Source: Chaetoderma sp. LZ-2023a (lineage: Eukaryota > Mollusca > Caudofoveata > Chaetodermatida > Chaetodermatidae). From it: DNA of 64,000 nt. The stretch spans positions 47,772,260 to 47,836,259 of the forward strand of contig CM067360.1 in assembly GCA_034401795.1 (NCBI GenBank), written 5' to 3'. Position 1 is the first letter of the stretch. Each line of letters starts with the position of its first letter. The notes beneath the pieces were generated by a model. It ran no database searches and had not been told where the DNA came from. It was given only the letters and a program-made list of their open reading frames with translations. The position numbers and the translations under genes are program-made. Of this stretch, positions 1,135 to 60,390 are shown piece after piece.

Positions 1135-1299
1135 AACTTGTCTCAACACTAAAATCAAAATATCTTGATGTATCAAAGTAACCACACAGAAAACATGATC
1201 AATATCTTGAAATTATTTCAACTATAAGCACTTTCAGCTTTGGAGAGCAACAGCCTCAAATCAGTATCGAAATATTCAACAGGAAACCATTTGACATCC

Positions 1300-1605: not shown

Positions 1606-1852
1606 ATTTCTGACAAATCTTGTTGTAGTCCATTACCAATTTACGAAACTTGACACAAATTACTTTCCCCAAAGGGTTCAATACTTTAAATGCTTTAAAG
1701 ACCCAGAGTTATGGCCCTTATTTAAAGGCATGGCTACTTCATATTCATAGTGCGAATAGATACTGCCTGAAGGAACATATCTGCTAAATTTGTTTTTAAT
1801 CCATCAACAATTGACAAAACAATGTATTTTACCTAACTATATAACAAATCTG

Positions 1853-2530: not shown

Positions 2531-2599
2531 TCACGCCGGACGTTATTTGGATCGATCGCTATGTTGAGATCCTCCGCTTCACTATGGGATCGACAAAAA

Positions 2600-2690
2600 A
2601 CCTGTCCCTCTTAAAGAACTGTTTGTTTTGAAGAACTATCTTAAAGAACTATTTGTCTTAAAGAACAGATTGTCTTAAAGACCAATGGCA
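2600..2690 (+). repeat. Short TTAAAGAACTGTTTG array upstream of the THAP gene
   Basis: Four to five degenerate units of about 17-20 bp lie 290-380 bp upstream of the THAP start codon. They share their sequence with the long array at 22.1-23.8 kb and the small one near 20.05 kb. Confidence 0.6.
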
Positions 2691-2828
2691 ACAAAGCAAA
2701 ACATATAAAATGTATATAGTCGTCTGTGTTATTTAAAAAAATATATCACAACGAATTCAAAATGATACATATTTACGCCAAAAATTTGCATTTATTTGCA
2801 ATTACAGTTTAGTTTGGAGACTATTAGT

Positions 2829-2862
2829 CACGTGGTTGCTGTGACGTCACATCGAGGAAACA
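2829..2862 (+). promoter_or_regulatory. E-box plus CRE palindrome, putative promoter of THAP gene
   Basis: CACGTG (2,829-2,834) is followed by GTTGCT and GTGACGTCAC (2,841-2,850), a full palindromic CRE/ATF site, then ATCGAGGAAACA. It sits 118 bp upstream of the ATG at 2,980. Almost the same CRE-GAGGAAACA block occurs upstream of the P2X7-like exon 1 at 19,858-19,880 on the other strand. A promoter role is inferred; the motif itself is directly visible. Confidence 0.5.
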
Positions 2863-2979
2863 AAAACAACACACAGCAGGTAGTTGGTGGCCATTCATTG
2901 TCCGGCGATTTCATGAAATTTACTTAAACGTTATTCTAGCGATTGTCTATTCTAATGTAGTTTATTTAAACATAACGCC

Positions 2980-3357
2980 ATGGTGCATTACTGTTGCGCG
3001 TTTAATTGCACAAATAACGGTTGTAATAAGTCTGTTTCATTTCATTTATTCCCGAAAGACGACAAACTTAGAAAAGTGTGGATAGGTAAAATTCGTAGAA
3101 AGAATTTCCTTCCATCGTCATCAAGTAAGGTGTGCTCAGAACATTTCAAACGCAAGTGCTATGTTAAACAAACCGATGAAAACTTTTTGTTGTCTCTAGG
3201 ATTTCAGAACACCAGAAAGAGACAGCTAAAAAAGGACGCCGTGCCAACAATATTTAATTTCAATGTTACACCACCAGTGCCAGTGTGTTCAGAATCAACA
3301 GTTGACCCTCCAACAAAACGTCGGAAGACAGTTGTCCAAAAACTAACTCATCGAAGG
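2980..3357 (+). CDS. THAP zinc-finger exon 1 of a transposase-derived gene
   Basis: This exon encodes about 126 residues opening with an N-terminal THAP domain, a C2CH zinc-binding DNA-binding fold. Visible features are Cys5 or Cys6 and Cys10 in CCAFNC, the conserved Trp near residue 34, Cys-x2-His-Phe (CSEHF) near residue 52, and AVPTIF near residue 87, the motif that closes THAP domains. The ATG is at the correct distance from the first cysteine. A potential splice donor (AGG|GTATGT) ends the exon in phase 0, and the open frame runs only to 3,396 beyond it. Downstream pieces from 4.84 kb match the body of THAP-bearing DDE transposases. The domain is intact although the rest of the gene is broken. 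Whether it is still expressed is unknown. Confidence 0.75.
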
Positions 3358-3387
3358 GTATGTGTTTCATTTAGTATTGATATCAAC

Positions 3388-3525
3388 AACAGTTAAATTT
3401 TCCAATAATTAGAAAATGTAAAATGTAACTGAATAATCATACTGAACAAGTACAATTATTTATTGTACTTGTTCAGTATGATTATTCAGTTCCATTTTAT
3501 AATTATTGGAAAATTTAACTGTTAT
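3388..3525. repeat. Near-perfect palindrome (hairpin) in the THAP intron
   Basis: The centre is near 3,457. CTGAATAATCATACTGAACA and its complement, followed by AGTACAAT/ATTGTACT, give an almost perfect inner stem of over 25 bp. The outer arms AACAGTTAAATTTTCCAATA and its inverse extend it to 138 bp. It starts just inside the putative intron and overlaps the last codons of the unspliced ORF. Confidence 0.75.
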
Positions 3526-3574
3526 TAAACTGTTAAATATTTTGAAAACAATTTGACTGTGAACCATTGCTGCC

Positions 3575-4750
3575 AGCACAACATTTTACCAGGCAAATAA
3601 ACCTCAAAATATTCAACTGGTGGGAGTGGGGTGGGTTGCTAGCACAACAGTTTGGCAAATAAACCTCAAAATATTCAACTGTTGAATATTTTTAAAACTA
3701 ATTTGATTAGAGTCTGTTGCTGACTATCAAGGTGGAGGGAGGGAGTGGGTGGGGTGTGTGTGTATTTTCCCATTTAACTGCAAATTCATTCAAAATAATT
3801 TTTTTAGTTTCTCATAGAAGATGTCCATGTGCAGGCCAAGACTATTTTGAAATTTTCCCACTGGAATGACTGGCTCGGTGTGTTAAATCTTCAAAAATAG
3901 TCTTGGTCTGCAAATGGATACTTTTCCAAGACCACTGCAGAAGCCGTTTTTGGCCAGCTCGAATGTTAAAGGGTTAAATGATTAAGAGATTTCTGAAAGA
4001 ACCCAGTTAACAACACAATATCATTTTCATTATCAACCTTATAGACTGGCCATCCGGAAATATAAACTCAAGCTAATCACTTTAAAAGAATCTTGACAAA
4101 GAATATCTAGCGAGTACAGTCAAGGGTGCTCAAGTGACCACCTGTGTTTTGCGGGCCAAAAAATGGCAGTGTGTTAATACAGATTTTTGTATGAACATTT
4201 TTAATATTGGCTATCGGAAGCATAGTATAGTCAGTCATCTTGTCTCATTAACCATTTGGTGCCCAAACCTGCCTTTGTAGTGGTCTTTAGAACTACCCAT
4301 TTGCAGGCCAAGAGAAGATGATAACCGAACCAATCCAGATTAACCCTTGAACTTCCAGTATCTCAATTTCAAGACATCTGTCAGCTGACTGTACAGGAAA
4401 GAAGTTGAATATTTTGAAAGTGATTTCACTGGGACCTGTTGCTGACATAGACAGGAGCAGCTCCCATTGAAATTAGATTCAAAATATTCAACAGAATGTT
4501 CCCTACATCAGAGAATTTGCCATTTCTTACTTGTAAACTTTAAATGGTTAACGCATTGACAAGAGAATTTCTTAGTGTTTCCAAGGTGATCATATTTATT
4601 ATATGTTGTTAAGACCCTTTCAATGATAAAGTAAATTGTCTACAATGTAAAATACATTTTGTTGAATGTTTTGAAATTAATTTAACTGGAAGCAGTTGCT
4701 ACCAACGGAAAGGACTTCCTGTCAAATTGATTTCAAACTATTCAAGTTTT
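3575..4750. repeat. THAP intron filled with MITE fragments
   Basis: The stretch contains pieces of the 91-bp palindrome family (3,585-3,705, 4,400-4,490 and 4,665-4,745) and degraded copies of palindromic MITE family 1 (3,790-3,976 and a half copy at 4,249-4,345). No exon is recognisable between the THAP exon and 4,839. Confidence 0.55.
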
Positions 4751-4838
4751 TCTTGTATGTTTGCCTTGAAGATGAGATACACAGAATTCATCGGCAAGTG
4801 TTAATCACATCTAATATTGTCTTTTTTCACTTTTTCAG

Positions 4839-6862
4839 ACAATCGCTGATTTAATAAAACCTCGTGTAGCCAAGACCTCTACCGAATATCATTTTCAGCA
4901 CACAAAACATTGTCATCAATCCAGAGTATAAATGATGGTGAGCAACTTGCACAAGACAGTCTGTGTGAAAGTGATGCTGCCCTGTCAGTACCAGTTTCTG
5001 TCTGCTTTGCCGACAAAGCTATCCAAGTTGACACTGCCGAGCTACAGCTGTATGCGTCTGGTCTGCTTTGTCCTGTAGTATTTTCATACCAATCTGAAAT
5101 GGCTGCTGTATCTCGTGATATGTTACCTCCAGCATCATGTGCAGCAGCAGCATCAACAGTGTCTACTACTTCAGAATCATCTGCTAGTTTCTCGGCTCCA
5201 GTCATACCAGTAGCAACTTCAACACCATCGAAGAAGTCAGCCACCTTTTCTGCTCCGTCTGCCAACTATCATTCAATATCGCGGATGATGATGATGATTA
5301 TATACCGGATAAACATGATTACACATACAATCCTTCTGATGATAGTGTCGATGAAAGCTGTGAAGAGGATAGTGGCGAATTCTATGCAGCAAACTTCGAA
5401 ACTACTACCCCTGATAAGGAGGAAATTTCTAGTATTCGAGTCATGCCTCTTGAAACTCTTTACATTTTGTATGATCTGTGGTTCTGTGTGCTACAACACC
5501 TCAACACGTATAGTTGGTTCTATGGTCATAATCAAAGGAGTTTGCCTGAATGGACATGACATTTTATGGAATAGCCAGCCTACAGATCGAACCATGCCAT
5601 GGGGTAATTTGCTGGCAGCAGCTTCTATACTCTTGTCAGGACTCTTACCAACAGCCGTCATTCGCATGTTCCGTTTCATAAACATGCCATTTATATCGAC
5701 TCGACATTTCTTTAATTATCAGAAGTTTTATTTTCATCCAGCCATTAAAACAGTGTGGTTACAACATCAACAGATGATATTGGAATCAATTCGTGATCGC
5801 CCTATTAGTGTAGCTGGTGATGCACGGTGAGATTCACCTGGTCACTGTGCCAAGTATGGGAGTTACACACTGATGGAAGTTAATTTGCGGAAGATTGTTT
5901 CTTTCAGCCTTGTTCAATCTAACGAAGTGAAGAATCCTTCATGGATGGAGTTTGAAGGCTTTAAGCGTTGTCTAGCATACATGCAATCACACGGCATGAC
6001 TATAACAAAGATTGTGACAGATCGGAATGTTCAAATCCGTAAGTTTATGTGAACTGAAAGGCCAGAAATAGGTCACTCTATTGACATTTGGCATGTTTCC
6101 AAGGGTTTGAAAAAGAAACTGTGCACACTTTAAAAAAAAAAAGGATTTGAAGCTGCAGCAGACTGGAGTCAGTCAATTTCCAACTTTTTATATTGGATCG
6201 CAGCTAGCAGTAATGAATGTGGTTCTGTTATGCAGGATAAGTGGCTAAGCATCCCTTTTCACATTGCTGACATACACGACAACCACCCAGGTGCAACATT
6301 TCCATCATGTCTTCACCCAAAACCGGAAGGGCCGGACAAAAGAAAGAAGTGGTTAAAATCTGGAAGCAAGTGCCATGAAAAGATTGTGTCAATGTTAACA
6401 TGTAAAAATATATTAAAAGATGTTGCTCAATTTTCAAACGATAGGATAAGCTCCCTCGAGGCCTTCCACTGTGTCATTTTGCACTTCGCCCCTAAAAACA
6501 CTCACTACTGGTTTGAAGGGATGTACTCTAGGCTGTGTTTAGCAACCTTACATTATAATGAGAATAGTGATAGACTACAGGCAACGACATCTGATGGTGG
6601 AAAACGATTTGGGGTGAGGTATAGGAAACAGAATAAGGGGAAAGCCACAGTTTCTCCAATTCTAGAAGAGTGTACCTTTGATTATGTCAAAGAACTTCTA
6701 GAAATCATTAATGATGAGAGACTGAATGCTCCGTCTTTCAGGGAAGTGATTAGGGCTGGGAATGGAAATAGCTTGTTTGTTCCCCCACCATTGACATCAA
6801 TGGTTGAGAACAAACCAGCAAAGGAAGATGCAATTGCTCAACACAAAAGTCGTTTCATTTAA
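4839..6862 (+). pseudogene. Broken THAP-associated DDE transposase body
   Basis: A good acceptor (TTTTTCAG) precedes 4,839. An acidic and Ser/Thr-rich linker lies in changing frames (KAIQVD near 5,027; an Asp run near 5,285). The core begins near 5,425 with RKFLVFESCLLKLF, then NLLAAASILLSG and GDAR-stop-DSPGHCAKYG. LVQSNEV, TDRNVQIRKF, SIDIWHVSKG and, near 6,500, YWFEGMYSRLCLATLHYNEN follow. These match in order the transposase body found with THAP domains in many invertebrates (P/Kolobok-type THAP transposons; exact family uncertain). Lesions are frame changes near 4.9 and 5.3-5.4 kb, TGA at 5,828 where Cys is expected in the DSPGH block, TGA near 6,049, and a stop beside an A-run near 6,131. 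The last 210 codons (6,230-6,862) are open. No terminal inverted repeats were recognised. Confidence 0.7.
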
Positions 6863-12221: not shown

Positions 12222-13600
12222 CTAACGAAAATGGTGGGAAGTGCTGGGCATATGGTCTTCGGCTTTTTTAGTTAAAATCGTAATATTACGAAAGAATGAA
12301 GCTGCTGCACTCAAGTCTTTAAGATAAAACGAGGTAAAAGTAGACTCAGATTTCCATCCTGCCACCTGCATGACTTCATCTAATGATGAACCGGCAAAAA
12401 GAGTGAAAGAAGTAGACATGCCCCTAACATCATGGGATTTAATATGAGCGAGATTAATTTGATCCGGAGACGCTATTTCGTAGCAAAGCTTAATCTTCTC
12501 ACAAAGCCATCTGGCAATCGTAGCCTTTGATACTGGCTTAGATAATTCTTCCGCGTAGGAAACCCATAAATGGGAAGGATCTGTTCTTTTAAAATCGGTT
12601 CGCTGTTTATAAGTTCTTAATGCTCTAACCGGACACCAAAGTTTGTCGGAAGGCGAAAAAGACGACAAAGATTTTAAAATAATAGGACTAGCAGGAAAAC
12701 GGTTAGACTGGGTTTTAGATAGAAAATCCATTCTCGGATATAAAACCAAACCGTCACCTGACACTATAAATCTATCCTTTTCTGCAGAAAGAGCATGAAT
12801 CTCTGAATGTCTTCTAGCAGAAGCAGCAGCCACAAGAAAAACTGCTTTAAGAGTTAAAAGCTTAAGACTGATAGACGATATAGGTTCAAAATGGCGACCT
12901 GCCAAGACTTGAAGAACCAAAGCCAGATTCCAGGAAGGTAAAGGCGTAGCAGACGGAGGACGAATATTACCTAGACCTCTAATAAAGCTATTAAGAGTCT
13001 TAGTATCCTTAACCTCGGCATTCAGAAGACAAGGCAGGGAAGATCCAAGCGAAAATCTATATCCCCTGACCGTATTAGCCGACAACTTCAAAGAGTCAAA
13101 CAGATACGATAAAAAATCTAAAACTTGTGGTATAGAAACAGAATCGGGCACGAAACCTTGGTCAGAACACCACTTTCCAAAGATTTTAAGACGACCCTTG
13201 TAAACTCTACGGGTCGATTCTCTTCTGGCCGAATTAATAATTTCCCGAGATATTTTAGAAACCTTATCCTGGAAGCTTTCAGACTCGGGATTCTCCAAAC
13301 GCATAGATTGAAGATTCCTGGACTTGGATGTACACACCGACCTCTTACTTGAGATAGAAGGTCCTGGGATACTGGAAGGAGACGAGGAAAGTCTACCAGA
13401 AGATCCAGAAGGTCCACAAACCAAATCCTCTTGGGCCAAAAGGGAGCTATCCGAAGAATCTCGCAAACTTGGTCCTTGACCTTCTTCAACACCAACGGGA
13501 TCAGAATAGTAGGAGGGAAGGCATAAGCGAACATCCCTGTCCAGGACTGAGACAGGGCATCTACCGCCAGGGCCTGACTGTCTGGAAAAGGAGACATGTA
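12222..13600 (-). CDS. DIRS copy 1 tyrosine recombinase (integrase) ORF, 3' part
   Basis: The C-terminal about 350 residues (from about 13,270) form a DIRS tyrosine recombinase. An N-terminal core-binding part begins at NSARRESTRRVYKGRLK. The first catalytic Arg is in AASARRHSEIHAL. HDVRG gives His-x-x-Arg, AGW the third position, and Tyr is in FTSFYLKDL. It would integrate the circular DNA intermediate. The frame is open to the stop before 12,222 and all catalytic residues are present. Upstream, the same frame stays open across the RNase H region (13.3-13.95 kb) without resembling a protein, so the true N-terminus is uncertain. A +1 insertion near 13,955 joins this frame to the RT frame, giving a misleading 994-codon ORF. 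Confidence 0.85.
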
Positions 13601-13955
13601 AGAGGAGATCTGGGCATTCAGAGAGGTCGCGAACAGATCTACTAGAGGACGATCCATGAGATTGAAAATCGCTCTGACAACCGACTTCTTTAACTGCCAC
13701 TCTGTGTGGGAGAACTTGCTGGGATGTGACAGTTGATCCGCCAGAAAATTCAGACTGCCTGGGACACGAGATGACACTAGAAAAATCTGCCTCTTGCGGC
13801 ACCACAAGAGCAGATTCCACACTTCTAGACAAAGGAGAGAAGACCTTGTACCTCCCTGCCTGTTGATATAAGCTACGACTGTCGAATTGTTCGACCAAAT
13901 TGACACTTTGAGGCCTATCACCAGATCTGACCAAGAAAGGAGAGCCTTCTTGACA
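13118..13955 (-). pseudogene. DIRS copy 1 RNase H and following domain, frameshifted from RT
   Basis: In the frame of the 314-codon ORF one reads SIWSNNSTVVAYINRQGG, HVPGSLNFLADQLS-type residues, VDLFATSLNAQ and YAFPPTIL. This is the RNase H connection and the region after it, which in DIRS elements is often described as a Dam-like methyltransferase domain. Comparison with copy 2 shows one extra base near 13,955 (TGGGCATGTC versus TGGGCTGTC), which disconnects it from the RT. It overlaps the recombinase frame by several hundred bases. Confidence 0.75.
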
Positions 13956-15333
13956 TGCCCACAACTCCAGAACGTTGATGTGGGCTGACGACTCCTCCAG
14001 GGACCAAAGGCCGGAAACTGACAGGGAGTCCCAGACCGCTCCCCAACCCTCCTGAGAAGCATCTGTGAAAATAATTGCTTGAGGAGAGGAATTTACCAGA
14101 GGAACACCCATCAGTAGCAGAGAACGGTCATTCCAGAAATCTAGACGAGGGACCAAATGTTCTCTGATGGGAATCTGATGGTAGATAGAATGGACTGACT
14201 GTTTCCAAAGGGACATCAAATACATCTGAAAGGGCCTTCTCATCATGGACGACCAAGGAACCACCTTCTCTATGCTGACCATCAGACCTATCACTCTTAA
14301 GAGGAATCTTGCTCTTACCCAAGGCGAGGAAGCAAGAATTTCCATGGCCACTGATAAAGCCTCTATCCTTGGCTCTGAGGGAAAGACTAACCCCCTGGCC
14401 AGATTGGAAGAAACGCCTAGATGATTAAAGATTTGCGACGGAACTAGGCTTGATTTCTCTAGATTCAAAATCCACCCTAGATTGCAAGCCAGACTGCAAA
14501 CCTCTGGAAGAATACCTTCGAGAATTGAGGATGACTTTGCTTTTACCAACCAATCGTCTATATAAACATGAAGATGGATAGAACGACGGTGTAAAATTCC
14601 TGCCACGGCTGAAACTATGCAGGTAAAAAGGAAGGGAGCCGTGGTCAGGCCGAAGGGCATGGCGCGAAACTGCCACACCCGATCATTGTAGGCAAACCTC
14701 AGGAACTTTCTGAATACAGGATGAATAAGAACATGGAAGTAAGCGTCCTTTAAATCTATGGAAGACGTCCACATTCCCTGACCCAGACTGGAAATGATCT
14801 GGGAAACCGTCTCCATCTTGAACTTTGGGGTGAGAATGTTCTGATTTAACTTCTTCAGGTTTATGATTGGACGCCAACCTCCTGACTTCTTTGGTACTAA
14901 AAAGATGGTCGAGTAGTAGCCCGGGTCTACTCCCCAACTGGGAACATCCTCTATAGCCCTCTTTACAATCATGGCTTCCAACTCCTCTTCCAAAGCCCTC
15001 AGTTTCTCCGGATTGGAGGGAATTGGAGTCCACACTGGGCAAAAGGAAAGAAGAGGAGGATGACGGATCCATGACGGAGCATAACCCCAACATATCTGGG
15101 ATACTAGCCAGGAGTCCTGAATGAGGGCTTGCCACTTCTCCCAAAACAGAGAAAGGCGCCCTCCTACTGGCACGTTGGGAACGCAGCACTGGACTGCTTG
15201 CTCCAAAGGGGGAGGGAGAAGGGAAGGAATGGGATAAATAAGAGAGATTTGGAACTACCCGGGAACTGTCCAAACCTTCAAACTCTCTTCCCCTGAAAAC
15301 CTCTAGATGAAAAACGTCCTCTGGATCTAGCAC
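13955..15333 (-). CDS. DIRS copy 1 reverse transcriptase domain
   Basis: RT motifs appear in order in the ORF opening at 15,206: LVPKKSGGWRPIINLKKLN, SSIDLKDAYFHV (catalytic Asp about residue 151), AMPFGLTTAPF, and VYIDDW (catalytic Asp pair about residues 217-218; 14,551-14,565). The start of RNase H follows (IIFTDASQEGWGAVW). It would copy the element RNA into DNA. The start codon is unclear; an upstream frame joins the end of gag near 15.3 kb. A +1 insertion near 13,955 breaks it from the rest of RNase H. Confidence 0.85.
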
Positions 15334-39539: not shown

Positions 39540-40293
39540 TAACAAATAATGATGATATGCTAACAAATAATGATGATATGCTAACAAATAATGACCATGC
39601 TAACAAATAATGGTCATATGCTACCAAATAATGACGATATGCTAACAAATAATGACGATATGCTAACAAATAATGGTCATATGCTAACAAACAATGACCA
39701 TGCTAACAAATAATGGTCATATGCTACCAAATAATGACGATATGCTAACAAATAATGATGATATGCTAACAAATAATGGTCATATGCTAACAAATAATGG
39801 TCATATGCTACCAAATAATGACGATATGCTAACAAATAATGACGATATGCTAACAAATAATGACGATATGCTAACAAACAATGACCATGCTAACAAATAA
39901 TGACGATATGCTACCAAATAATGACGATATGCTAACAAATAATGACGATATGCTAACAAATAATGACGATATGCTAACAAACAATGACCATGCTAACAAA
40001 TAATGGTCATATGCTAACAAATAATGACCTTATGCTAACAAATAATGACGATATGCTAACAAATAATGATGATATGCTAACAAATAATGACGATATGCTA
40101 ACAAACAATGAGCATGCTAACAAATAATGGTCATATGTTAACAAATAATGATCAAATGCTAACACATAATGACCATATGCTAACACATAACGACCATATG
40201 CTAACACATAACGACCATATGCTAACAAATAATGACCATATGCTAACAAATAATGATCATATGCTAACAAATAATGACCATATGCTAACATAA
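39540..40293. repeat. 21-bp satellite (GCTAACAAATAATGACGATAT), about 36 units
   Basis: Units of 21 bp are mixed with 19-bp versions (GCTAACAAATAATGACCAT) and ACCAAATAATG variants. The 19-bp variants recur at spacings of roughly 100-190 bp, hinting at larger copied blocks. Both strands are open in some frames by composition only. Confidence 0.9.
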
Positions 40294-40490
40294 TACCAAA
40301 GTAATCTCATTTTTTCGCATTAAAAATTACGCAGTTTCTTAAAACGAAGGCGTAATGCGATCCACAGACCTACAAACACACACATTCAAAATGATGTTTC
40401 TACCATACTCGTCTGAATCACTCGACCATTCTTATTTGACTTTACAAGAAATCCAAATCTAATGGTACTCTTGAATTAATAAGCATACTT

Positions 40491-41107: not shown

Positions 41108-41888
41108 ATCACATTAAACAAGAGGTTCAAGGGCCTTAATGCTCACCTGGACCATTAGCAATTGAATCATTAGCATTTGAACAGACATAATACTTTCTAT
41201 TCAGCAGTAACAAGACATAAAAAACAAAATTGATAATTCAGAATGATCAATATTTAGTGAGAAATTAATGATGAAAGCTGACCACACAATCAGATTGAAC
41301 CTTAGGTTCCATCCAGCCAATAAAAAATCCAATATGGCCATCAAATCGAAAATTTTGATTGGTCCGTGACAGACATGTTTTATCAAGGATCACGTTCTCT
41401 TGAACAAACTTGAATGACCCTTAGTTATCAATGAAGCCTGATCTTGATTTTGGACAACAAGATGCTGACTGGAACAAGAGGTTAATGAGTAGGGTTTTAA
41501 ACGATTTACAGCCATTTTTCGGAAAATCCAAGATGGCTACCGAACAAATTGACCAATCAAAATTCTGTATACAAGCTCAGAAGCACATGACTCTAGGGTC
41601 CTTCCAGATGAGTTAACTTGAAATCGTTCAAATGGTTAATAAGAAGTAGCATTTTAACTGATTTTCAGAAAATCGAACATAGCCGCCAGAAAAATTGGCC
41701 AATCAAAATTATGTATACAAGTTTTGAAAACTACCAGCCTAGTATTCTTCCAGTCAAGTCTGGTTGAAATTGCTCAAGCATTTAATGAGGAGTCGCATTT
41801 TAAATGATTTTTCAGAAAATTCAAGATGGCCACCAAAAAATTGCAAGTATACAAGTTCTGAATCATACCACTCTAGGGTCCTTCCAAC
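41108..41888. repeat. Composite repeat, left part, split by TIR transposon copy A
   Basis: It starts AGAGGTTCAAGGGCCTTAAT then GCTCACCTGG and carries degenerate about 150-170 bp subunits. Each contains AAAATCCAAGATGGC, GACCAATCAAAATTCTGTAT and ACTCTAGGGTCCTTCCA. It resumes at 44,894. Its right end (45,915, AAGGTGAGCTAAAAA) is roughly inverted to its start. Confidence 0.7.
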
Positions 41889-42019
41889 TGATAGTAGGGC
41901 AGATATGTGAAAAAGATGTTCCATTCTGGCAGAATGCATGAAATTTGGCATATAGGTGGTTTACGGTATCCTGATCATAATTAGATGCGGTGCCACGTGA
42001 TTCTACCAAGGGAACCCAT

Positions 42020-44188
42020 TCAAAATGGCGGATTCAAAATGGCCGCCTTCCCAGCGGAAACACACAGAGACGCTGGGGCATCAGACAGTCTCCTAAATAG
42101 TGACTTGAATAGATCTGAAGTCCTCCAAACTTCCCATGCTGTCTTCTTGCCAATCCCACAAAATGCAGACACAGTGTCACACCCAGAGAAAGCATGCATA
42201 AATAGCAGTCCTTGTGACGCTTCTGCACCCAAAACTGTTGCAATGCCATGAGCTGAGACATAGCGGAAGGTCTTCCCATGGCCAAATGCGACCCAGAGAT
42301 CACACCCATGAAGAAAGTTTGCTGTCCGTATGGCTAGGACTACGACGTCTATCTGTAGCATGAATCATTATTGTTCGATAACCTTGGTGATATGCATGGA
42401 AGGCGTGGAGCAACATTCTACCATCTGCTTCATCTTGCATGCATGGCGCAAGTTGTGAGACGTCATGCTCTGGCCTCATCAGCACGTCTTCCTCACATGT
42501 TGTGATGAGTATCTTTCCTTCTGGTAGCTCGAATGACTCCAATGTATGTGTGAGAAAGGTGAAGAGGCCTGTTTTGTTTTCGTACAACGTTTGATGTCAA
42601 TTGTTCAAGAGTTCGAATGACCCCAGTATTTGTGTCTGAACAATGTTGTGTTAATGAGATTGCTGTCCCATGGAATGCAGTTCGTGCTGATGTGGATGTA
42701 GGATTATGGTCTATGTTATCAAGGTTCCCAGTTGTGAACAGATTACCATGCAAGTTAGTCGGACAAACAACCCCATCCTTTTTAAACATGTCTATAGCCT
42801 TATTTCGTACATCAGTCTAGAGCAGCATGACGCGATCGTAGGATACTGAAAGGCCATGTCTGAAGAATTCATCCCCAAGCTCCCGCTTTCACGTTTTGGC
42901 ATGAATTAGTAGGCCTAGGTAGAGTGGCAATGCTGTTTCACGATCAGGATTATGGCGAGTTCCCATACTGCTTTTACACGCTCTTTTAATGGCATTAAAG
43001 ATGAGTAGCTGGGTCAATGACGACACTACTTCCCCCTTGATAGTTTGGGAATTCTCATTTTGATTATGAATGTTGGTACCGTCCAGTATCATCTGAACTA
43101 AAGTAACAAGTGATTGAGGTAAGTTGTCATACTGGTCAGCATCAAGTGAACCCTTGGAATCATACTTAATCTGAAAAATCTCTTTGCGGACTATTTGAGC
43201 TGCCCTCATCAACGCAATTGCATCACTATCAGAATCATTTTTGGTGGCTAGTAATAGAGCATCGCCTGTCTTTCTTGAATGTGAGAATCACTTCATAGTT
43301 ACTCTTGTTTGACTCCACATTTGGCATTTTCGACAAAATCTTTTCCTTCAACCTGGTAGAGTTAATCCTACTTGGCATAGCACTACCAAGTTGTTCAAGA
43401 CGGCGAGTGTATAATCGTGTTAAATCAGAAAGCTTAAATATGCTGCCAATAGGATTCTCAGAGGCTTAACGATCTTCCATGTATGATATTAGCTCTGCAA
43501 GAGCAACAGAGTCAGGTTTCATATCGTCGGCAATATCAGATTCACTTCTCGAAAGAGATCTATGTCGAGTGTATAGTTTTGTCAAACAAGTCTTGTGGTA
43601 AATAGCATCCAATGCTGTCATGTCTCCAGATGACATTTTAGCAAGAAGTTTTGTATCTCTCAGTTCTGTCACCATTTTGCGTATGTTTTGGTCAAATTTT
43701 GCTGTTGCGGCTCTATGAATGTCATGCTCTATCGGTTGGTCACAGAAAAAGCACAGTGGTTGAGTGGGGTCATTTATACTTGGCATAGTGAAATTAGACC
43801 TCAATCTAGATTTGACTGGTGACCTGAGATCCTCGCTGGATTCTAATTTCGCAATTCTTTTCACGGCGCGATCAACCCGAGTCCGGCTACAGAGATGCCA
43901 ACAAGATTTGTGCCACCTAGCACAGTTTTCTATGAGCGTCTCCACAATTCCAGATCCATCATTCAACCTACATAGATCCAGGTATGGTGGAAGGGCATGG
44001 AGTTGCTGTAGCCTATCAAGGTTATCAGCTAATGACCTATAACTCGTAATCACATTGTCACGATTTGTGTTACTACATGGATCTATGAGATGCTCCGTTG
44101 TGGACTGCTGGCAAATAACACACAGGGACCAGTTCGTGTGTGCTAAATCCACTGTGGGATCAGATGTCAATTTCACTTTCTTTGACAT
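42020..44188 (-). pseudogene. Copy A gene: Cys/His N-region and PIN/XPG-like nuclease, broken
   Basis: The open start MSKKVKLTSDPTVDL runs 240 codons (44,188-43,466). It includes CVICQQ...HLIDPC, HKSCWHLC and CFFCDQPIEHDIH, Cys/His groups that could bind zinc. It ends at a stop where copy B has Asn-Gln (MEDR-stop versus MEDNQ). Further frames continue: KEIFQIKYDSKGSLDADQYD (43.2 kb), FTTGNLDNIDHNPTSTSA-like and FHGTAISLTQH (42.7 kb), DEADGRMLLHAFHAY (42.4 kb), LHGCDLWVAFGHGKTF and HAFSGCDTVSAF (42.2 kb). The acidic EAD, DTD-position and GCDT residues follow the PIN/FEN/XPG nuclease pattern; the central Asp motif reads IDVVVL here. The C-terminal Cys cluster present in copy B is deleted. Function as a transposase is inferred from lying between terminal repeats. 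Confidence 0.75.
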
Positions 44189-44527
44189 ATTGACTTGAAT
44201 GCGAGAATATAATAGACTATTGTCTCTGTTTATAAGCAGAGCACAATACGCGTGTGCGTGATTGCTATGCAGCTATGTATTCTCCTGATATATTTAAATA
44301 GTCAGTGAGAGGTTAGGAAACTACAATAATTATATGGAAATCCGCAACGAAATAATGCTTGGCGAAGCGAGGGGCTGGCATACAATTACTTTTACTGGAG
44401 AAAACGTGTAGACCAATTGTTTTGAGTAGCAAAAACTTGTTTCTAAAATGTTCCGCCCGGAATGTGTGTACAAACGTTTAGCAATAATACCCACTAATTT
44501 ACAAATGTTACAACAACGATGACGATG

Positions 44528-44547
44528 ACCACAACAACAACAACAAC

Positions 44548-44584
<37 letters not shown>

Positions 44585-44586
44585 TA
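44528..44586. repeat. (AAC)n(AAT)n microsatellite at inner edge of a terminal repeat
   Basis: ACAACAACAACAACAATAAT continuing as (AAT)n. The complementary tract occurs at the same position in copy B (56,876-56,940), so it belongs to the element. Confidence 0.85.
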
Positions 44587-44893
44587 TTTTTCAGCATGTT
44601 TATCTATTTAGAGTATTGTAGTAGGTAAAATCATAACCAGTGACCCAAGAAACCCTTAATTTGACATCAATTCCAGCCCTCTACTCCATCTAGAACTTGA
44701 GCAATGCAGATTTTCCGCGGGGAAGGCGGTCATTTTGAATCCGCCATTTTGAATGAGTTCCCTTGGTAGAACCACGTGGCACTGCATCTAATTATGTTCA
44801 GCATACCTTAAACCACCTATATGCCAAATTGCATGCTTTCTGTCAGAATGGAACATCTTACCTCAAATTTGTTACATATCCAACCCACTATGA

Positions 44894-45926
44894 GTTTGCT
44901 TGAAATTGGCCAAGTGGTTAATGAGGAGTAGGCTTTTAAATGATTAAAGAAATTTTCAGAAAATCCAAGATGACCACCAGAAAAATTAACCAATCAAAAT
45001 TCTGGATACATGCTCTGAAACATACCAGCCTAGTACCCTTTCAGCCAAGACTGGTTGAAATTCCCAAAGCAGTTAATGAGGAGTAGCATTTTATATGATT
45101 TCCCACCATTTTTTTTAATATTCAAGATGGTGGGCGAAAAAATAGAGAAATCAAAATTCTGTATATAAGTTCTGAACCATAAGATCCTTCCAGCCAAATT
45201 TGTTTGAAATCCGTCAAAGCATAAATGAGATGCGCTTTAAACGACATCCTGCCATTTTTTTTAACATTTAAGGTGGCCGAAAAACTAGACCAATCAAAAT
45301 TTTGTATAGCAGTTCTGAAGCCTACCACCATAGGATCCTTCCAACCAAATTTGGTTGAAATCCGCCAAAGCATAAATGAGGAGATGCGTTTTAAACGATT
45401 TTGCACCATTTTTAAAAATATTCCAGATGGTCAGTGAAAAAATACACCAATTAAAATTCTGTATACAAGTTTTGAAGCATACCCATCTAGGGTCCTCCCA
45501 ACCGAGTTTGCTTGAAATCGGCCAAGTGGTTAATGAGCAGGCTTTTAATTGATTTCCAGAAATTTTCTGAAAATCCAAGATGGCTGCAGGACTTATTGAC
45601 CAATCAGAATTCTCATTATAAGTGTTGAAGTCTACCAGGATAGAATTAGTCCACACAAGTTTCATTGAAGTTGGGCCATTTATATTGGAGGAGTAGCATT
45701 CTAAATGATTTTCAGAAATTTTTTGGAAAATCCAAGATGACCACCAGAAAAATTGACCAATCAAAATCCTGTATAGAAGTTCTGGAGCCTACCACCATTT
45801 TCCTTCCAAATTTGATTGAAATCTGTCAAAGCATAAATGAGGAGATGCGATTTGATGGACGGACGGACGGCGGACGGATGACCGCCATGGCATAATCTCA
45901 CTCTGGGCCGAAGGTGAGCTAAAAAA
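44894..45926. repeat. Composite repeat, right part
   Basis: Six or more diverged subunits of about 150-170 bp (CCAAGATGGCTGCAGGACTT, AATTGACCAATCAAAATCCT, GAAATCCGCCAAAGCATAAA). The end is GGACGGACGGCGGACGGATG, then GGCCGAAGGTGAGCTAAAAA. ORFs within are repeat artefacts. Confidence 0.7.
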
Positions 45927-46903: not shown

Positions 46904-46981
46904 AGGCTAGTTTACCATTGTCCTCATATTTCAATCTATTGGATGCACTACCAGGAAATTCCCATAAAAAATAAAGCATCC

Positions 46982-47417
46982 CCTGCTAGCTTGGTCACTC
47001 AGTGTCCACTGCTAGCTTGGTCATTCAGTGTCCACTGCTAGCTTGGTCATTCAGTGTCCACTGCTAGCTTGGTCATTCAGTGTCCACTGCTAGCTTGGTC
47101 ATTCAGTGTCCACTGCTAGTTTGGTCATTCAGTGTCCACTGCTAGTTTGGTCATTCAGTCTCCACTGCTAGTTTGGTCATTCAGTCTCCACTCCTAGCTT
47201 GGTCATTCAGTGTCCACTGCTAGCGCAGTCATTCAGTGTCCACTGCTAGCTTGGTCATTCAGTGTCCACTGCTAGTTTGGTCATTCAGTGTCCACTGCTA
47301 GTTTGGTCATTCAGTGTCCACTGCTAGCTTGGTCATTCAGTCTCCACTGCTAGCTTGGTCATTCAGTGTCCACTGCTAGCGCAGTCATTCAGTGTCCACT
47401 GCTAGTGCGGTCATTGC
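46982..47417. repeat. 26-bp satellite, about 16-17 units
   Basis: Unit CCACTGCTAGCTTGGTCATT + CAGTGT. Variants include TTTGG and GCGCAG in place of CTTGG; the GCGCAG variant recurs 156 bp (six units) apart, at 47,221 and 47,377. Confidence 0.9.
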
Positions 47418-49061: not shown

Positions 49062-50090
49062 CTAACGAAAATGGTGGGATGTGCTTGGTAAATGGTCTTC
49101 AGCCTTCTTGGTTAAAATAGTAATGTTCCTAAAGAAAGATGCCGCTGCGCTTTGGTCTTTCAAATAAAAAGAGGTAAAAGTAGACTCAGATTTCCATCCT
49201 GCAACTTGCATAACTTCGTCTACAGGAGAGCCAGCAAACAGAGCAAGAGGTAGCCATCCCTCTAACATCATGAGCCTTAATGTGAGAGAGATTGATTTGC
49301 TCAGGAGAAGCAATCTCATAGCATAGTTGAATGGTGTCACAAATCCATCTAGCGATGGATGCTTTAGAGACCGGTCTGGCTACCCCTTCCGCGTAGGGAA
49401 CCCATAAGTGAGACGGATCGGATCTTTTAAAATCGGTACGACGCTTATAAGCCGTAAGAGCTCTGACTGGACACCAAAATCTGTCAGACGGAGAAAACGA
49501 AGATAAGGATTTAAAAATAATCGGCTTAGCTGGATAATGGTTTGATTGTGTCTTAGACAAAAAATCCCTTCTAGGATATAATACCAAACCGTCCCCAGCT
49601 TCAATAAATCTATCCTTTTCAGCGGAAAATGCATGGATCTCAGATCGTCTTCTAGCAGAAGCCGCCGCTACTAGAAAAACCGCCTTAAACGTTAAAAGCT
49701 TTAAGCTAATCGAGGCGATGGGTTCAAAATGATGCCCTGCCAAAACCTGAAGAATCAGCGCCAAGTTCCAGGAAGGTAACGGTTTAGCAATAGGAGGCCG
49801 AATATTACCTAAACCTCTGATGAACCCATTCAGCACCTTAGTATCCTTAACATCCGCATTTAACAAACAAGGAAGAGAAGATGCTAAGGAAAATCTATAT
49901 CCTCTAACAGTGTTAGCAGTCAGATGAAGAGAATCGAACAGATAAGATAAAAAATCTAACACTTGCGATATAGAAACAGAATCGGGCACGAGATCATAAT
50001 TTGAGCACCATTCTCCGAATATCTTAAGTCGACCCTTGTAAACTCTTCGGGTCGACTCCCTCCTGGCCGAATTAATAATTTCCTGAGACC
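49062..50090 (-). pseudogene. DIRS copy 2 tyrosine recombinase, frameshifted C-terminus
   Basis: From NSARRESTRRVYKGRLKIF through AASARRRSEIHAF and HIKAHDVRGMATS the frame is that of the 970-codon ORF. The frame is lost near 49,242. The rest (LFAGSPVDEVMQVAGWKSES, then FTSFYLKDQ with the nucleophilic Tyr) lies in another frame and runs to the stop before 49,062. Catalytic residues are preserved in sequence but not in one frame, so this copy cannot make a full enzyme without correction. Confidence 0.85.
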
Positions 50091-50382
50091 TTGCAGAAAA
50101 TTTATTCTCCGTGACCGAGCACTCGATATTCTCCAAACACACAGACTGAAGATTCCTGGGTTTGGATGAAGGCACGTTCCCCTTACTTGGGATAACAGAT
50201 CTGGGGACACTGGCAACAGACGTGGGAAGTCTACTAGAAGATCGAGAAGGTCTACGAACCAGATCCTTTTTGGCCAAAATCTCGCTATCAACAAAATCTC
50301 GCATACTTGATCCTTGACTTTCTTCAGAACCAAGGGAAGCAGGATAGTCGGAGGGAACGCATACGCGAAGATTCCTGTCCAG
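49956..50382 (-). pseudogene. DIRS copy 2 tail of the RNase H/MT-like region, out of frame
   Basis: GIFAYAFPPTILLPLVLKKV, IARFWPKRIWFVDLLDLLVD and LLPVSPDLLSQ match copy 1's in-frame tail. Alignment with copy 1 shows an 11-nt deletion just upstream (GTAGATGCCCTGTCTCAGTC versus GTGGACGTCC), which throws it out of the RT frame. It overlaps the recombinase frame. Confidence 0.75.
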
Positions 50383-52098
50383 GACGTCCACCGCCAACGC
50401 CTGATCGTCCGGAAAAGGAGACATGAAAGAGGAGATCTGGGCATTCAGAGAGGTCGCGAACAGGTCTACATGGGGACGATCCAGGAGGTTGAAGATCGCT
50501 TTGACAACCGACCACTTTAACTGCCACTCTGTGTGGGCGAATTTGGAAGGACGAGACAACTGATCCGCCAGAAAATTCAGACATCCTGGGACATGGGAGG
50601 ACACCAGGAAAATCTGCTTCATACGACACCACATGAGGAGATTCCACACCTCCAAACAAAGGCGAGACGACTTCGTGCCTCCCTGCTTGTTGATATACGA
50701 GACTACTGTTGAATTGTCTGATCGAATCGAGATCTTGAGGCCCTGCACTTGATCCGACCAAGCAAGGAGAGTCTTCTTGACAGCCCACAATTCCAGAATG
50801 TTGATGTGGGCTGATGACTCCTCTAGGGACCACAGGCCTGAGACCGAAAGGGAACCCCAGACCGCTCCCCATCCCTCCTGGGAAGCGTCTGTAAAGATGA
50901 TCGCTTGAGGAGAAGACTTGACCAGAGGAACACCCATCATCAGCAGAGAGCGATCCTTCCAAAAATCTAGGTGGGGCCTTAAATGCTCTCTGACCGGGAT
51001 CTGATGGTACACTGAATGGGTCGACTGTTTCCACAGGGACATTAGATACATTTGGAAAGGTCTCCTCATCAGCGCCGCCCACGGAATGATGTTCTCGACG
51101 CTGACCATCAAGCCAATCACCCGGAGAAAGAATATTGCTCTGACCACAGTAGAGGATGCCAGAATTTCCATGGCTACTAGGATGGCTTCTACTCTTACCT
51201 CTGAAGGGAAGACTAAGCCTTGACCTAGGTCGAAAGCCACACCTAGGTGGGTGAAAACCTGAGATAGGACCAAAGATGATTTTTCTAGATTTATAACCCA
51301 TCCTAGACTGGAAGCCAGACTGCAGACCTCTGGAATGATGCTTGCCAGAATTGAGGCATATTCTGCTTTTAGCAACCAATCGTCTATGTAAACGTGAAGG
51401 GGAATAGAACGACTGTGCAGAAAACCTGCCACTGCTGACACTAGGTGGGTGAAGAAGAAAGGGGCCGTGGTCTGGCCGAACGGCATGACTCTGAATTGCC
51501 ATACCCTGCCCTTGAACGCGAATCTCATGAATTTTCTGAATGGAGGGTGGATGAGAATGTGAAAGTAGGCGTCCTTGAGATCTATGGACGCTGTCCACAT
51601 GCCTGGACTCAGACTGGCGATAATCTGAGATACCGTCTCCATCTTGAATTTTGGGGTGGATATATGCAGATTTAATCTCTTCAGATTGATGATTGGACGC
51701 CATCCACCTGATTTCTTGGGGACTAGAAATAGAGTTGAGTAGAATCCCGGGTCTACTCTCCAACATGGAACCTCTTCTATAGCCTTCTTCAACAGCATTG
51801 ACTCCAATTTGTCTTCCAGGGCTCCCAACTTCTCCAGATTGGATGGACCTGGAGTCGATTTGGGCTGGTAAGATAGAGGAGGAGGCAGATCTATCCAAGA
51901 CGGTGCATAACCCCAGCGGATTTGATCTAACAGCCAGGAGTCCTGCGCGAGGGCGTGCCAAGTCTCCCAGAACAGAGACAAGCGCCCTCCTACTGGCACG
52001 CTGGGAAGAAGGGATTGCACCGATAGATCCAAAGGTGGTAGAAGAGGAGGAAGGACTGGTAAATGAGAACGGGAAAGGCCTGCCCGGGCTGAGGCCAC
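50382..52098 (-). CDS. DIRS copy 2 reverse transcriptase and RNase H
   Basis: A single open frame. RT motifs: LVPKKSGGWRPIINLKRLN, ASIDLKDAYFHILIH, VMPFGQTTAPF and VYIDDW (catalytic Asps about residues 239-240). RNase H follows: IIFTDASQEGWGAVW, SSAHINILELWAVKKTL, SIRSDNSTVVSYINKQGG, then VDLFATSLNAQISSF. It would copy element RNA and degrade the template. A second frame of 545 codons (50,324-51,961) is open over the whole domain; it is the upstream continuation of the recombinase frame seen in copy 1, not a separate recognisable protein. Confidence 0.9.
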
Positions 52099-52102
52099 CC
52101 CT

Positions 52103-53291
52103 TCAAACCTGTCTAGGTTGAAAACCTCTAGAGGAGCGTCCTCTAGAACTAGACCTGGAACCGCGAGAGAAAAATTGACCCCTTCTCACCTGAGGAGGGG
52201 CTTGACGAACCTGGGCTCTAGGTCTATGTGAGGAAATGGATTTAAAACGATCCTCCTCCACAGATCTGGAATGGGAAGGAGAGGACCGATTAGAGTTCGT
52301 AAAAACCCTTGACGGATAAGCCCCATATTCATCCGGCCTAAGACTCTTCCTCCTGGGAGAGGAGGAGGGACTCTTCACCGCAGAAGTCTCTTTTTACTGA
52401 CGGCCTCAAAATAGAAATCTGATCCCGCAGATCCTTAGCTGATCTAAGACGATCAGACTCCGCCCTAAGGATCGAGGTAGAATTCTGACCGAAAATATCT
52501 GATCCGAAAGGCGGAGCAGATATCAGGTTACTACTGAGGGAATCCGAAATATTCACTCAGCAAGCTTCCTTAACCTTCTCTTAGAGGTGATGAAACCTAG
52601 TGAACGGCAAACTGAATTCAACGAACCTCTTGACAGGTCAGCTAACGAACAAAATATCTCCGGAGGAATCTGACCCCCTTTCTCCTGAGTTTTGAGCATA
52701 GCCTCTGAAAGAAGGGCCAAAAAGTTTGCTGATTTCAACTGAGCCCGACAGACAGACTCCCATCTAAAAAGGTCTGACAAAGATTCTTCCTTAGCCGCTT
52801 CCTTCAGATGCGATGAAAGAACATCCCATGTCGGACCATTAAGAGATTGAGTAGAAGCCAATCTAATGTAATCATCTTTCGGAACCTGAACTGGAGCATC
52901 TACCTTGGGAGTAAGAGAAAAATCTTTCAGTTGGACATCGTTAATGTAAAAATCTAACATGTCTACTACCAAGTTATCTACCGGAAGAACAGAAGGAACA
53001 TTAGCTGAAGAGTCTGAAGATGACAGCGCAGAACCAAACGACGGAGGATCAATCGAAAATTCATCCTGAAGAGGAAGAGATAGAGACGAAGCTATCCATT
53101 GATGAGCCCTAGACCAGTCATCTGGTGAGGCCCTCTCATGATAGAACCTCTTCAGATCCCTGGCCCTGACTGATCTTTGAGTAGCCTTGACAGAAAGGTG
53201 AGACGGAGAAGAAGAAGAAGGAGGACAGATGTCCGAATCTAGCGAAACAGAAGAATCAACGATCCTCAGAGAGGAAGGAGAAGCTAAAGCT
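52103..53291 (-). pseudogene. DIRS copy 2 gag C-terminal part, frame changes
   Basis: Frames 52,553-52,972, 52,338-52,556 and 52,103-52,378 carry successive parts: WDVLSSHLKEAAKEESLSDL, SLADLSRGSLNSVCRSLGF and a basic Arg/Ser tail (SSRGRSSRGFQPRQV). The corresponding region of copy 1 (15,278-16,330) shows the same order. The tail could bind RNA. Confidence 0.65.
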
Positions 53292-56404: not shown

Positions 56405-56573
56405 ACACATTAGCATCTCTAGCTAGCCATAAATGTTCAATTGCAGACTAAGAAAACACTATTTTAGAAAATTGACCACTGGAATGACTGGCTCAACAAC
56501 CGAGGTCGAGCCAGTCATTGCAGTGGTACATTTTCAAATATAATCTTGGTCTGTAAATCGACATTTTCTCTGA
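56405..56573. repeat. Family 1 MITE interrupted by TIR transposon copy B
   Basis: The MITE stem and tip (ACTGGCTCAACAACCGAGGTCGAGCC is an altered tip) run to GACATTTTCTCTGA. After copy B the sequence resumes with AGATTGAAATTCTTTT, resembling the expected MITE continuation (GAAAATTGAAATTTT). Confidence 0.65.
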
Positions 56574-56875
56574 TAGTGGGCCGGATATGTAACAAATTTG
56601 AGGTAAGATGTTCCATTCTGGCAGAAAGCATGAAATTTGGCGTATAGGTGGTTTAAGGTATGCTGAACGTAATTAGATGCAGTGCCACGTGATTCTACCA
56701 AGGGAACCCATTCAAAATGGCGGATTCAAAATGGCCGCCTTCCCAGCAGAAAATCTGCATTACTCAAGTTCTAGATGGAGTAGAGGGCTGGAATTGATGT
56801 CAAATTAAGGGTTTCTTGGGTCACTGGTTATGATTTTACCCATTACAATACTCTAAATAGATAAACATGCTGAAA

Positions 56876-56879
56876 AATA

Positions 56880-56910
<31 letters not shown>

Positions 56911-56940
56911 GTTGTTGTTGCTGTTGTTGTTGTTGTTGTG
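56876..56940. repeat. (ATT)n(GTT)n microsatellite inside copy B
   Basis: The inverse of the tract in copy A at 44,528-44,586; diverged slightly (GTTGCTGTTG). Confidence 0.85.
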
Positions 56941-57286
56941 GTCATGGTTGTCGTCGTCGTTGTAACATTTGTAAATTAGTAGTATTATTGCTAAACGTTT
57001 GTACACACATGTTCCGGGCGGAACATTTTAGAAACAAGTTTTCGCTACTCAAAACAATTGGTCTACACGTTTTCTCCAATAAAAGTAATTGTATGCCAGC
57101 CCCTCGCTTTACCCAAGCATTATTTCGTTGCGGATTTCCATATAATTATTGTAGTTTCCTAAACTCACACTGACTATTTAAATATATCAGGAGAATACAT
57201 AGCTGCATAGCAATCACGCACACGCGTATTGTGCTCTGCTTATAGACAGAGACAATAGCGTATTATATTCTCGCATTCAAGTCAAT

Positions 57287-59491
57287 ATGTCAAAGAAAGT
57301 GAAATTGACATCTGATCCCACAGTGGATTTAGCACACACGAACTGGTCCCTGTGTGTTATTTGCCAGCAGTCCACAACGGAGCATCTCATAGATCCATGT
57401 AGTAACACAAATCGTGACAATGTGATTATGAGTTATAGGTCATTAGCTGATAACCTTGATAGGCTACAGCAACTCCATGCCCTTCCACCATACCTGGATC
57501 TATGTAGGTTGAATGATGGATCTGGAATTGCGGAGACGCTCATAGAAAACTGTGCTAGGTGAAACAAATCTTGTTGGCATCTCTGTAGCCGGACTCGGGT
57601 TGATCGCGCCGTGAAAAGAAATGCGAAATTAGAATCCGGCGAGGATCTCAGGTCACCAGTCAAATCTAGATTGAGGTATAATTTCACTATGCCAAGTATA
57701 AATGACCCCACTCAACCACTGTGACCAACCGATAGAGCATGACATTCATAGAGCCTCAACAGCAAAATTTGACCAAAACATACGCAAAATGGTGACAGGA
57801 CTGAGAGATACTAAGCTTCTTGCTAAAATGTCATCTGGAGACATGACAGCATTGGATGCCATTTTCCACAAGACTAGTTTGACAAAACTATACACACGAC
57901 ATAGATCTCTTTCGAGAAGTAAATCTGATATTGCTGACGATATGAAAACTGACTCTGTTGCTCTTGCAGAGCTAATATCATACATGGAAGATAATCAAGC
58001 CTCTGAGCATCCTATTGGCAACATATTTAAGCTTTCTGATTTAACACGATTATACACTCGCCGTCTTGAACAACTTGGTAGTGCTATGCCAAGTAGGATT
58101 AACGTTACCAGGTTGAAGGAAAAGATCTTGTCGAAAATGCCAAATGTGGAGTCAAACAAGAGTAACTATGAAGTGATTCTCACATTCAAGAAAGACATAG
58201 GCGATGCTCTATTACTAGCCACCAAAAATGATTCTGATAGTGACGCAATTGCGTTTATGAGGGCAGCTCAAATAGTCCGCAAGGAGATTTTTCAGATTAA
58301 GTATGATTGCAAGGGTTCACTTGATGCTGACCAGTATGACAACTTACCTCAATCACTTGTTACTTTAGTTCAGATGATACTTGGCGGTACCAACATTCAT
58401 AATCAAAATGAGAATTCCCAAACTATCAAAGGGGGAAGTGTCGTCATTGACCCAGCTCATCTTTAATGCCATTAAAAGAGCGTGTAAAAGCAGTATGGGA
58501 ACTCGCCATAATCCTGATCGTGAAACAGCATTGCCACACTACCTAGGCCTACTAATTCATTCCAAAACGCGAAAGCGGGAGCTTGTGGATAAACTCTTCA
58601 GACATGGACTTTCAGTATCCTACATGTGAGGAAAACGTGCTGATGAGGTCAGAGCATGACATCTCACAACTCGCGTCATGCATGCAAGATGAAGCAGATT
58701 GTAGAATGTTGCTCCACGCCTTCCATGCATATCACCAAGGTTATTGAACAATAATGATTCATGCTACAGATACAGACGTCGTAGTCCTAGCCATACAGAC
58801 ATTAAACTTTCTTCATGGGTGTGATCTCTGGGTCGCATTTGGCCATGGGAAGACCTTCCGCTATGTATCAGCTCATAGCATTGCAATAGTTTTGGGTGCA
58901 GAAGCATCACAAGGACTGCTATTTATGCATGCTTTCTCTGGGTGTGACACTGTGTCTGCATTTTGTGGGACTGGCAAGAAGACAGCATGGGAAGTTTGGA
59001 GGACTTCAGATCGATTCAAGTCAATATTTAGGAGACTGTCTGATGCCCCAGCGTCTCTGTGTGACAATGACATGGAAACGCTGGAGAGGGTTGTCGTACT
59101 ACTGTACAAACGCACATCACCATTGTCAAAGGTTAATGAGGCACGAAAACGGCTTTTCGCATTTGGCAACAGGCAGCTAGAAAACATTCCTCCGACCAGT
59201 GCAGCTCTGCTGCAACACACCAAACATGCTGCATTCCAGGCAGGTCATCTTTGGGGCCAATCACTCCATGCAAATGCAAAAACGTCATCGCCAGCTGACT
59301 GGGGTTGGGTCAGAGATGGAGACACTTGGTCACCGCAATGGAGTTTGCTTGCAGACGCATCTAAGGCATGCCGGGAACTCGTGAAATGTGCTTGCAAAAG
59401 TAATTGCACTGACAGAAGCAAATGCTATAAATCCAACTTACCTTGTACACAGTTGTGCTCATGCGGTGCACAGTGCGTGTGCCATCTGTGA
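57287..59491 (+). pseudogene. Copy B gene: PIN/XPG-like nuclease with C-terminal CXC cluster, broken
   Basis: It starts MSKKVKLTSDPTVDLAHTNW. A TGA near 57,560 replaces the Trp of copy A (ARWHKSCWHL). An 11-nt deletion near 57,720 removes CFFC. Frames continue 57,702-58,466 and 58,381-58,629, then a deletion of about 340 nt relative to copy A removes the DNIDHNP region. The last part (58,754-59,491, 245 codons) is open: IHATDTDVVVLAIQTLNFLH, WVAFGHGKTFRYVSAH, HAFSGCDTVSAFCGTGKKTA, then CACKSNCTDRSKCYKSNLPC followed by TQLCSCGAQCVC. Together with an upstream EAD (DEADCRMLLH), the acidic residues fit a PIN/FEN/XPG nuclease core, and the end resembles a CXC (tesmin/TSO1-like) zinc cluster. A tether or DNA-binding role for the cluster is inferred. 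Confidence 0.8.
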
Positions 59492-59987
59492 ATCATGATT
59501 CAACAATCAACAGCATCATGTATAGCCTTGCATACTCTAATAGGATAATTGAACGTATCTATAATGACCATTACTTGGTTCGATATTAAGATGTCAAGTA
59601 ATTTAAACTATTTCTAGATGCTATATTGCTTTTGTTCTCAAGAGATCTTAAAGAGCCACCGTCTTTTGACATCAAACACAGGTGGTCACTATGGAAGGAT
59701 TGATATTTACATATTTAGATTATTGTAGTGAGTAAAATTATAACGATTGACCCATGAAACCCCTAATTTGACATTAATCTCATCTATCTACTCCATCTAG
59801 AGCTTGAGTAATGCAAATTTTCCGCTGGGAAGGCAGCCATTTTAAATCTGCCATTTTGAATGGGGGCCGTTGGTAGAATCACGTGGCACCGCATCTAATT
59901 ATGATCAGGATACCTTAAACCACCTATATGCCAAATTTCATGCTTTCTGCCAGAATGGAACATCTTTTTCACATATCTGCCCTACTA

Positions 59988-60390
59988 TGAAGATTGAAAT
60001 TCTTTTCGACTTACCCGATACATGTGATATGTATCCTGCTCTGTCTATGATGGACGAATGAGGGTGTAAGTCTGGAAACGCTGAATATTCAACTATTCAC
60101 TTGAACTTATAGCTATTAAACCTAGATTTCATTCTAATATACATGTTTAAATAGCAGATATTTACCAGATACTGTGCCAAAACTGTTAATATGTTGATTA
60201 CTTTGAGAACAATCTGAATGAACATAGTTGGCCCAGCAGGCAGCAACAACTATTAGTGAGTTTTACAAAAAATTTTCCGAAAATATTAAATACGTTTCAT
60301 AATTAGCTGTAAATTTAAACCAAGTTTTAAAATATTAAATAGGTTAATAAATAGGTAACTATCCATGGGAAACATATTATATATAACATA
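59988..60390. other. Non-coding stretch with a partial palindrome
   Basis: Begins with MITE remnants; a diverged 91-bp-family copy lies near 60,185-60,290. Confidence 0.35.

Follow-up and report, generated by a model that had tools for sequence, protein, structure and literature searches.

The 64,000-nucleotide stretch of Chaetoderma sp. LZ-2023a analyzed here (contig CM067360.1 of assembly GCA_034401795.1, positions 47,772,260 to 47,836,259 of the forward strand; hereafter the window) carries two copies, A and B, of a transposon with terminal inverted repeats, which a preliminary description had read as an element bearing a PIN/XPG-like nuclease gene instead of a recognizable DDE transposase. 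Copy A was delimited by its ends and flanks, and two deletions were placed in it by comparison with 5.7-kb copies of the same element. The features of the two copies are given below in window coordinates.

41892..44890, transposon copy A (2,999 bp), with internal deletions and its gene on the minus strand
41889..41891 and 44891..44893, left and right TGA target-site duplication of copy A
41892..42060, plus strand, left inverted repeat of copy A, 169 bp, shortened by deletion 2
42060..42061, junction of deletion 2 in copy A, about 0.76 kb gone (end of the gene with the CXC tail, and the inner inverted repeat)
42065..42576, minus strand, second half of the FEN/XPG-like nuclease in copy A, frameshifted
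42576..42577, junction of deletion 1 in copy A, about 2.0 kb gone (central domain and the first two acidic nuclease motifs)
42535..44272, minus strand, N-terminal part of the broken gene in copy A, two CxxC...HxxC modules followed by a helical region
44712..44890, minus strand, right inverted repeat of copy A, with 44712-44859 still paired with the left arm and followed by the outermost 31 bp
56574..59987, transposon copy B (3,414 bp), with an internal deletion and its gene on the plus strand, opposite to copy A
56571..56573 and 59988..59990, left and right exact 3-bp target-site duplication of copy B
56574..56868, plus strand, inverted repeat of copy B, 295 bp
57203..58623, plus strand, N-terminal part of the broken gene in copy B
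58622..58623, junction of the deletion of about 2.3 kb in copy B, accurate to a few bases
58622..59476, plus strand, second half of the FEN/XPG-like nuclease with the CXC tail in copy B
59703..59987, minus strand, other inverted repeat of copy B, 285 bp

Copy A begins with TAGTAGGG at 41892 and ends with CCCACTA at 44890, the chance expectation of these end patterns in the window being 0.01 and 0.00; the coordinates given for it earlier, 41889..44893, take in the target duplications. Inverted ends of about 290 bp had been ascribed to both copies, and this holds for copy B, whose repeats can be aligned over 264 bp at 88% identity, but not for copy A, where the repeats match at 93% over 148 bp and the left arm is short because the second deletion ran into it. 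Copy A lies within an imperfect tandem array of units of ~ 146-157 bp (41487-45850) that extends on either side of it, and further tandem repeats of 21 bp (40000-40295) and 26 bp (46979-47405) are found nearby.

The two copies had also been said to carry the same gene, and what each of them retains is a broken remnant of it, with some 2.0-2.3 kb of the middle gone. In the numbering of L032, a longer copy of the element used as the reference, copy A lacks ~ 2317-4312 and ~ 4829-5589 and copy B lacks ~ 2055-4388. The N-terminal part of copy A was recovered at 95% and 86% identity by tblastn with an open 608-amino-acid N-terminal frame from locus L028. The acidic core noted at the outset (EAD...DTD...GCD) was found in both copies, on the minus strand of copy A (EAD 42431-42425, DxD ~ 42355-42349 across the frameshift, GCD 42178) and on the plus strand of copy B (EAD 58691-58697, DTD 58769-58775, GCD 58946). 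The C-terminal CXC cysteine cluster reported for copy B was likewise recovered (59372-59476) and is confined to it, copy A having no tail. The reading frames are broken in both, the largest stop-to-stop pieces being 268 amino acids in copy A and 254 and 247 amino acids in copy B.

Further copies were sought across the 2.44-Gb genome. A DNA search gave at least 120 matching pieces (40 of 1,615 candidates scored), and a protein search with a 603-amino-acid frame gave at least 75 matches (73 of 16,605 candidates scored). Stretches were fetched around part of these matches, and a script located 26 pairs of ends, counting only copies with both ends, not a single one, inside the fetched stretch. Two pairs were dropped, one at L041 because its flanks mirror those of locus L039 and one at L024 because two right ends had been paired in a rearranged copy, which left 24 distinct elements. 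The 3-bp target duplication seen earlier was confirmed: it was exact in 17 of the 24, against a mean of 1.5 for shuffled pairings (18 of 26 against 1.6 expected before the two pairs were dropped). An exact 4-bp duplication was present in two (L003 and L033), and neither length in five (L009, L017, L018, L027 and L032), although L009 has CAA on either side once one terminal base is shifted. Duplications of 5 to 12 bp matched in none of the 24 pairs, and none had a 9- or 10-bp duplication even with two mismatches tolerated. One more copy outside this set, L019, exceeds the mismatch limit of the script and shows AGG on either side by eye.

When aligned to L032, to which their identity is 92.8-95.3%, seven of the 24 elements (L032 itself included) come within about 100 bp of full length, at 5,639-5,811 bp. 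L045 lacks about 0.57 kb, and 16 elements have lost more than 1 kb to deletions. No two elements have both breakpoints in common, and the left breakpoint falls within 8 bp in L011, L015, L020 and L021. Because the loci were selected for resembling either copy A or the gene's C-terminal part, the proportions of full-length and deleted copies are not those of the genome. Two rearrangements were seen among these loci. The full-length copy at L024 (3649-3741) has an additional, inverted right terminus 92 bp inside its left end, with 12 flanking bases identical to those of the true right end. L039 and L041, about 283 kb apart on contig C11, carry one and the same insertion between flanks that are mirror images, suggesting an inverted segmental duplication.

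The protein was read from frames of individual copies. The gene of L032 occupies element positions ~ 634 to 5226, some 1,500 codons that are interrupted in this copy, and the longest open frames used from the window's family were the 608-amino-acid N-terminal frame of L028, a 961-amino-acid middle frame (L045) and the 603-amino-acid C-terminal frame (L024). The N terminus shows two CxxC...HxxC modules and then another conserved stretch. A central domain follows, in which L032 has aspartates at 2699 and 3182 and DQ.HEQ at 3329-3341, and after it the nuclease motifs LDG (4043), VWD (4184), EAD (4457-4463), DxD (4535-4541, the first D reading C in L032) and GCD (4712). The CXC tail closes the gene at 5226. 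Of the two deletions in copy A, one takes out LDG and VWD along with the whole central domain and the other the tail; the deletion in copy B takes out the central domain, LDG and VWD. It is because these deletions removed the central domain and the rest of the nuclease motifs that EAD, DTD and GCD alone had been seen at first. The claim of a nuclease in place of a DDE transposase is not supported by the full-length copies, which have a further conserved domain with D...D...E residues. Nor is the suggestion that the protein was too short and perhaps of a distinct family, since copies of 5.64-5.81 kb encode about 1,500 amino acids. A DDE domain in intact copies had been named as the finding that would overturn the earlier reading; of such a domain only the motif residues were seen, since modelling it yielded no usable structure.

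Relatives were sought in the same genome with an approximate C-terminal consensus as the query. The search returned 114 rows at 49-60% identity, mostly over the full query length, and these include the window's family as well as families nearer to the query. Three relatives were read, with 1,249 (L048, open), 1,147 (L049) and 813 (L050) amino acids. Compared with rows of the window's family they show 37-52% identity per domain, about equal for the central domain, linker, nuclease and tail. The central D, D and E were kept in 5/5, 10/10 and 10/10 of the alignment rows having the residue, and an additional E (TEN) in only 8/10. Among the nuclease residues, LDG was kept in 10/10, VWD in 8/8, the two acids of EAD in 8/8 each, those of DTD in 9/9 and 8/9, and GCD in 9/9. 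All five motifs are conserved in L048, L049, L050 and most rows of the window's family, and are incomplete in copies A and B. The alignment rows were chosen as long open frames, and decayed copies are therefore under-represented in these counts. The same 813-amino-acid stop-free frame occurs in 18 of the 114 rows (L050 and 17 more), 12 of them with identical E-values, which suggests that the family of L050 spread recently; it looks young and is possibly active, though some of the rows lie on small, possibly duplicate contigs.

No credible family emerged for any region of the protein from searches of Pfam, NCBIfam and PDB sequences, whether run with individual proteins or with alignments; the few weak rows, CAF1 and HflX (E 0.031 each) among them, look like chance. 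Short exact peptide patterns scanned against IMG/VR and GTDB contigs yielded no confirmed relative. By fold comparison, the C-terminal nuclease region matches 5'-nucleases, at about 10% identity in the structural alignments. The acidic pattern of 5'-nucleases is, in order, D, D, E-x-D/E, D-x-D and D. FEN1, EXO1, XPG and GEN1 share this fold and motif order with the C-terminal third of the transposon protein, which differs from them in its low identity, in its setting within a transposon protein with a CXC tail, and in having a nuclease activity predicted from fold and motifs. The prediction that this region has a PIN/5'-nuclease fold of the FEN1/EXO1/XPG superfamily is well supported; the earlier PIN/FEN/XPG reading is backed by the fold comparison and by the ordered acidic residues in divergent families of the same genome. 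For the central domain, an AlphaFold model of the domain alone (341 residues of L049) had a predicted local distance difference test score (pLDDT) of 41, and VIA-align returned no transposase or RNase H-fold row in an effective test of model residues 538-898, with the central domain outside them. To judge from its D/D/E motif, the central domain is probably the transposase.

It could instead be that the FEN/XPG-type nuclease is itself the catalytic center of transposition, the central domain being structural or DNA-binding and no DDE transposase being present. The longer copies do hold all the expected acidic motifs, the fold does match 5'-nucleases, and the central domain matched no family and gave no usable model. 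However, that domain carries a conserved D, D and E and is conserved as strongly as the nuclease, and the known FEN-type enzymes are metal-dependent flap nucleases or exonucleases, not strand transferases. Academ, the superfamily to which the element is assigned below, is moreover listed among those with a DDD/E transposase (PMC9587614), and we consider this explanation unlikely. Its boldest form, in which the elements move by FEN1/EXO1-type 5'-nuclease cutting with no RNase H-type transposase, and the central D/D/E belongs to an undescribed fold, appears quite doubtful.

The nuclease of Academ elements is called XPG type, and the division into AcademH and AcademX is reportedly due to Kojima (2020). 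Within the one superfamily, 3-4-bp target duplications characterize AcademX and 9-10-bp duplications AcademH, and these are tied to nuclease and helicase (PMC10045372). The present family resembles AcademX in its nuclease, its 3- or 4-bp duplications and its lack of a recognized helicase, and differs from AcademH, whose helicase and 9-10-bp duplications were not found in it. No helicase family appeared among Pfam and NCBIfam rows up to E 10 with frames jointly covering nearly the whole protein, nor in a Pfam search with L048-L050. The lack of a helicase, which had been taken as a hint of a distinct family, was borne out in these searches and is what would be expected of AcademX as opposed to AcademH. 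The length agrees as well: curated bivalve Academ elements, 100 of them identified with DDE/D profiles, average 5,565 bp (PMC10294476), close to the seven full-length copies. A DDD/E transposase with an accessory nuclease is also described for KolobokE, KolobokD and KolobokP, which differ in their TTAA 4-bp duplications and in their lambda-exonuclease-like, DEDDh and His-Me finger nucleases (PMC9587614). With all testable traits in agreement and no helicase, the family is therefore placed with AcademX, and the Academ link proposed at the start was right as far as it could be tested. From these traits we infer an already described group of transposons, not a new one.

The comparison with AcademX is one of described traits, and a separate superfamily, alike in duplication length and nuclease and unrelated by descent, has to be weighed. 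The nuclease without a recognized helicase, the 3-4-bp duplications and the length of about 5.6 kb all agree with AcademX or Academ (PMC10045372, PMC10294476), and such a convergence seems rather improbable. The reading of A and B as short autonomous elements with half a nuclease as their sole enzyme is practically excluded: each has both ends and its duplications, but the private deletion breakpoints within a longer gene, the broken frames and the loss of the first two acidic motifs speak against it, and the full-length copies contradict it.

We judge the family to be an ordinary one, represented in the window by two damaged copies. We regard it as probable that both are dead remnants, with internal deletions, of a 5.7-kb cut-and-paste transposon of the Academ (AcademX) type, whose intact form encodes a protein of about 1,500 amino acids working as follows. 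The N-terminal Cys/His modules and the CXC tail would serve in binding to DNA or chromatin. Excision of the element and its joining to the target with a 3-bp stagger would fall to the central D/D/E domain, and the trimming of flaps or processing of junctions at the excision or integration site to the C-terminal FEN1/EXO1/XPG-type nuclease. Intact ends combined with private internal losses are a trace of interrupted gap repair after excision, as in P and hAT elements, and copies A and B probably arose in this way, through repair of the excision gap that halted early and left the ends and part of the gene. The preliminary description was, overall, partly confirmed in what it observed and partly supported in how it interpreted it.

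Elsewhere in the window, two retrotransposon copies with reverse transcriptase lie on the minus strand at 12222-15254 (RVT_1, E 2.6e-22) and 49186-52185 (RVT_1, E 1.1e-17). The first also gave a weak match, under the curated cut-off, to the N-terminal domain of tyrosine recombinases, and is possibly DIRS-like.

In the literature searched, neither experiments on the role of a flap-nuclease-like domain joined to a candidate transposase nor an account of the mechanism of an Academ protein was found. The appearance of a nuclease instead of a transposase arose from internally deleted copies, which is a trap when transposons are classified by single insertions. With their long open frames, L048, L049 and L050 are candidates for testing what such a fused nuclease domain contributes, and the question that merits specialist attention is which of the protein's domains makes the cuts.
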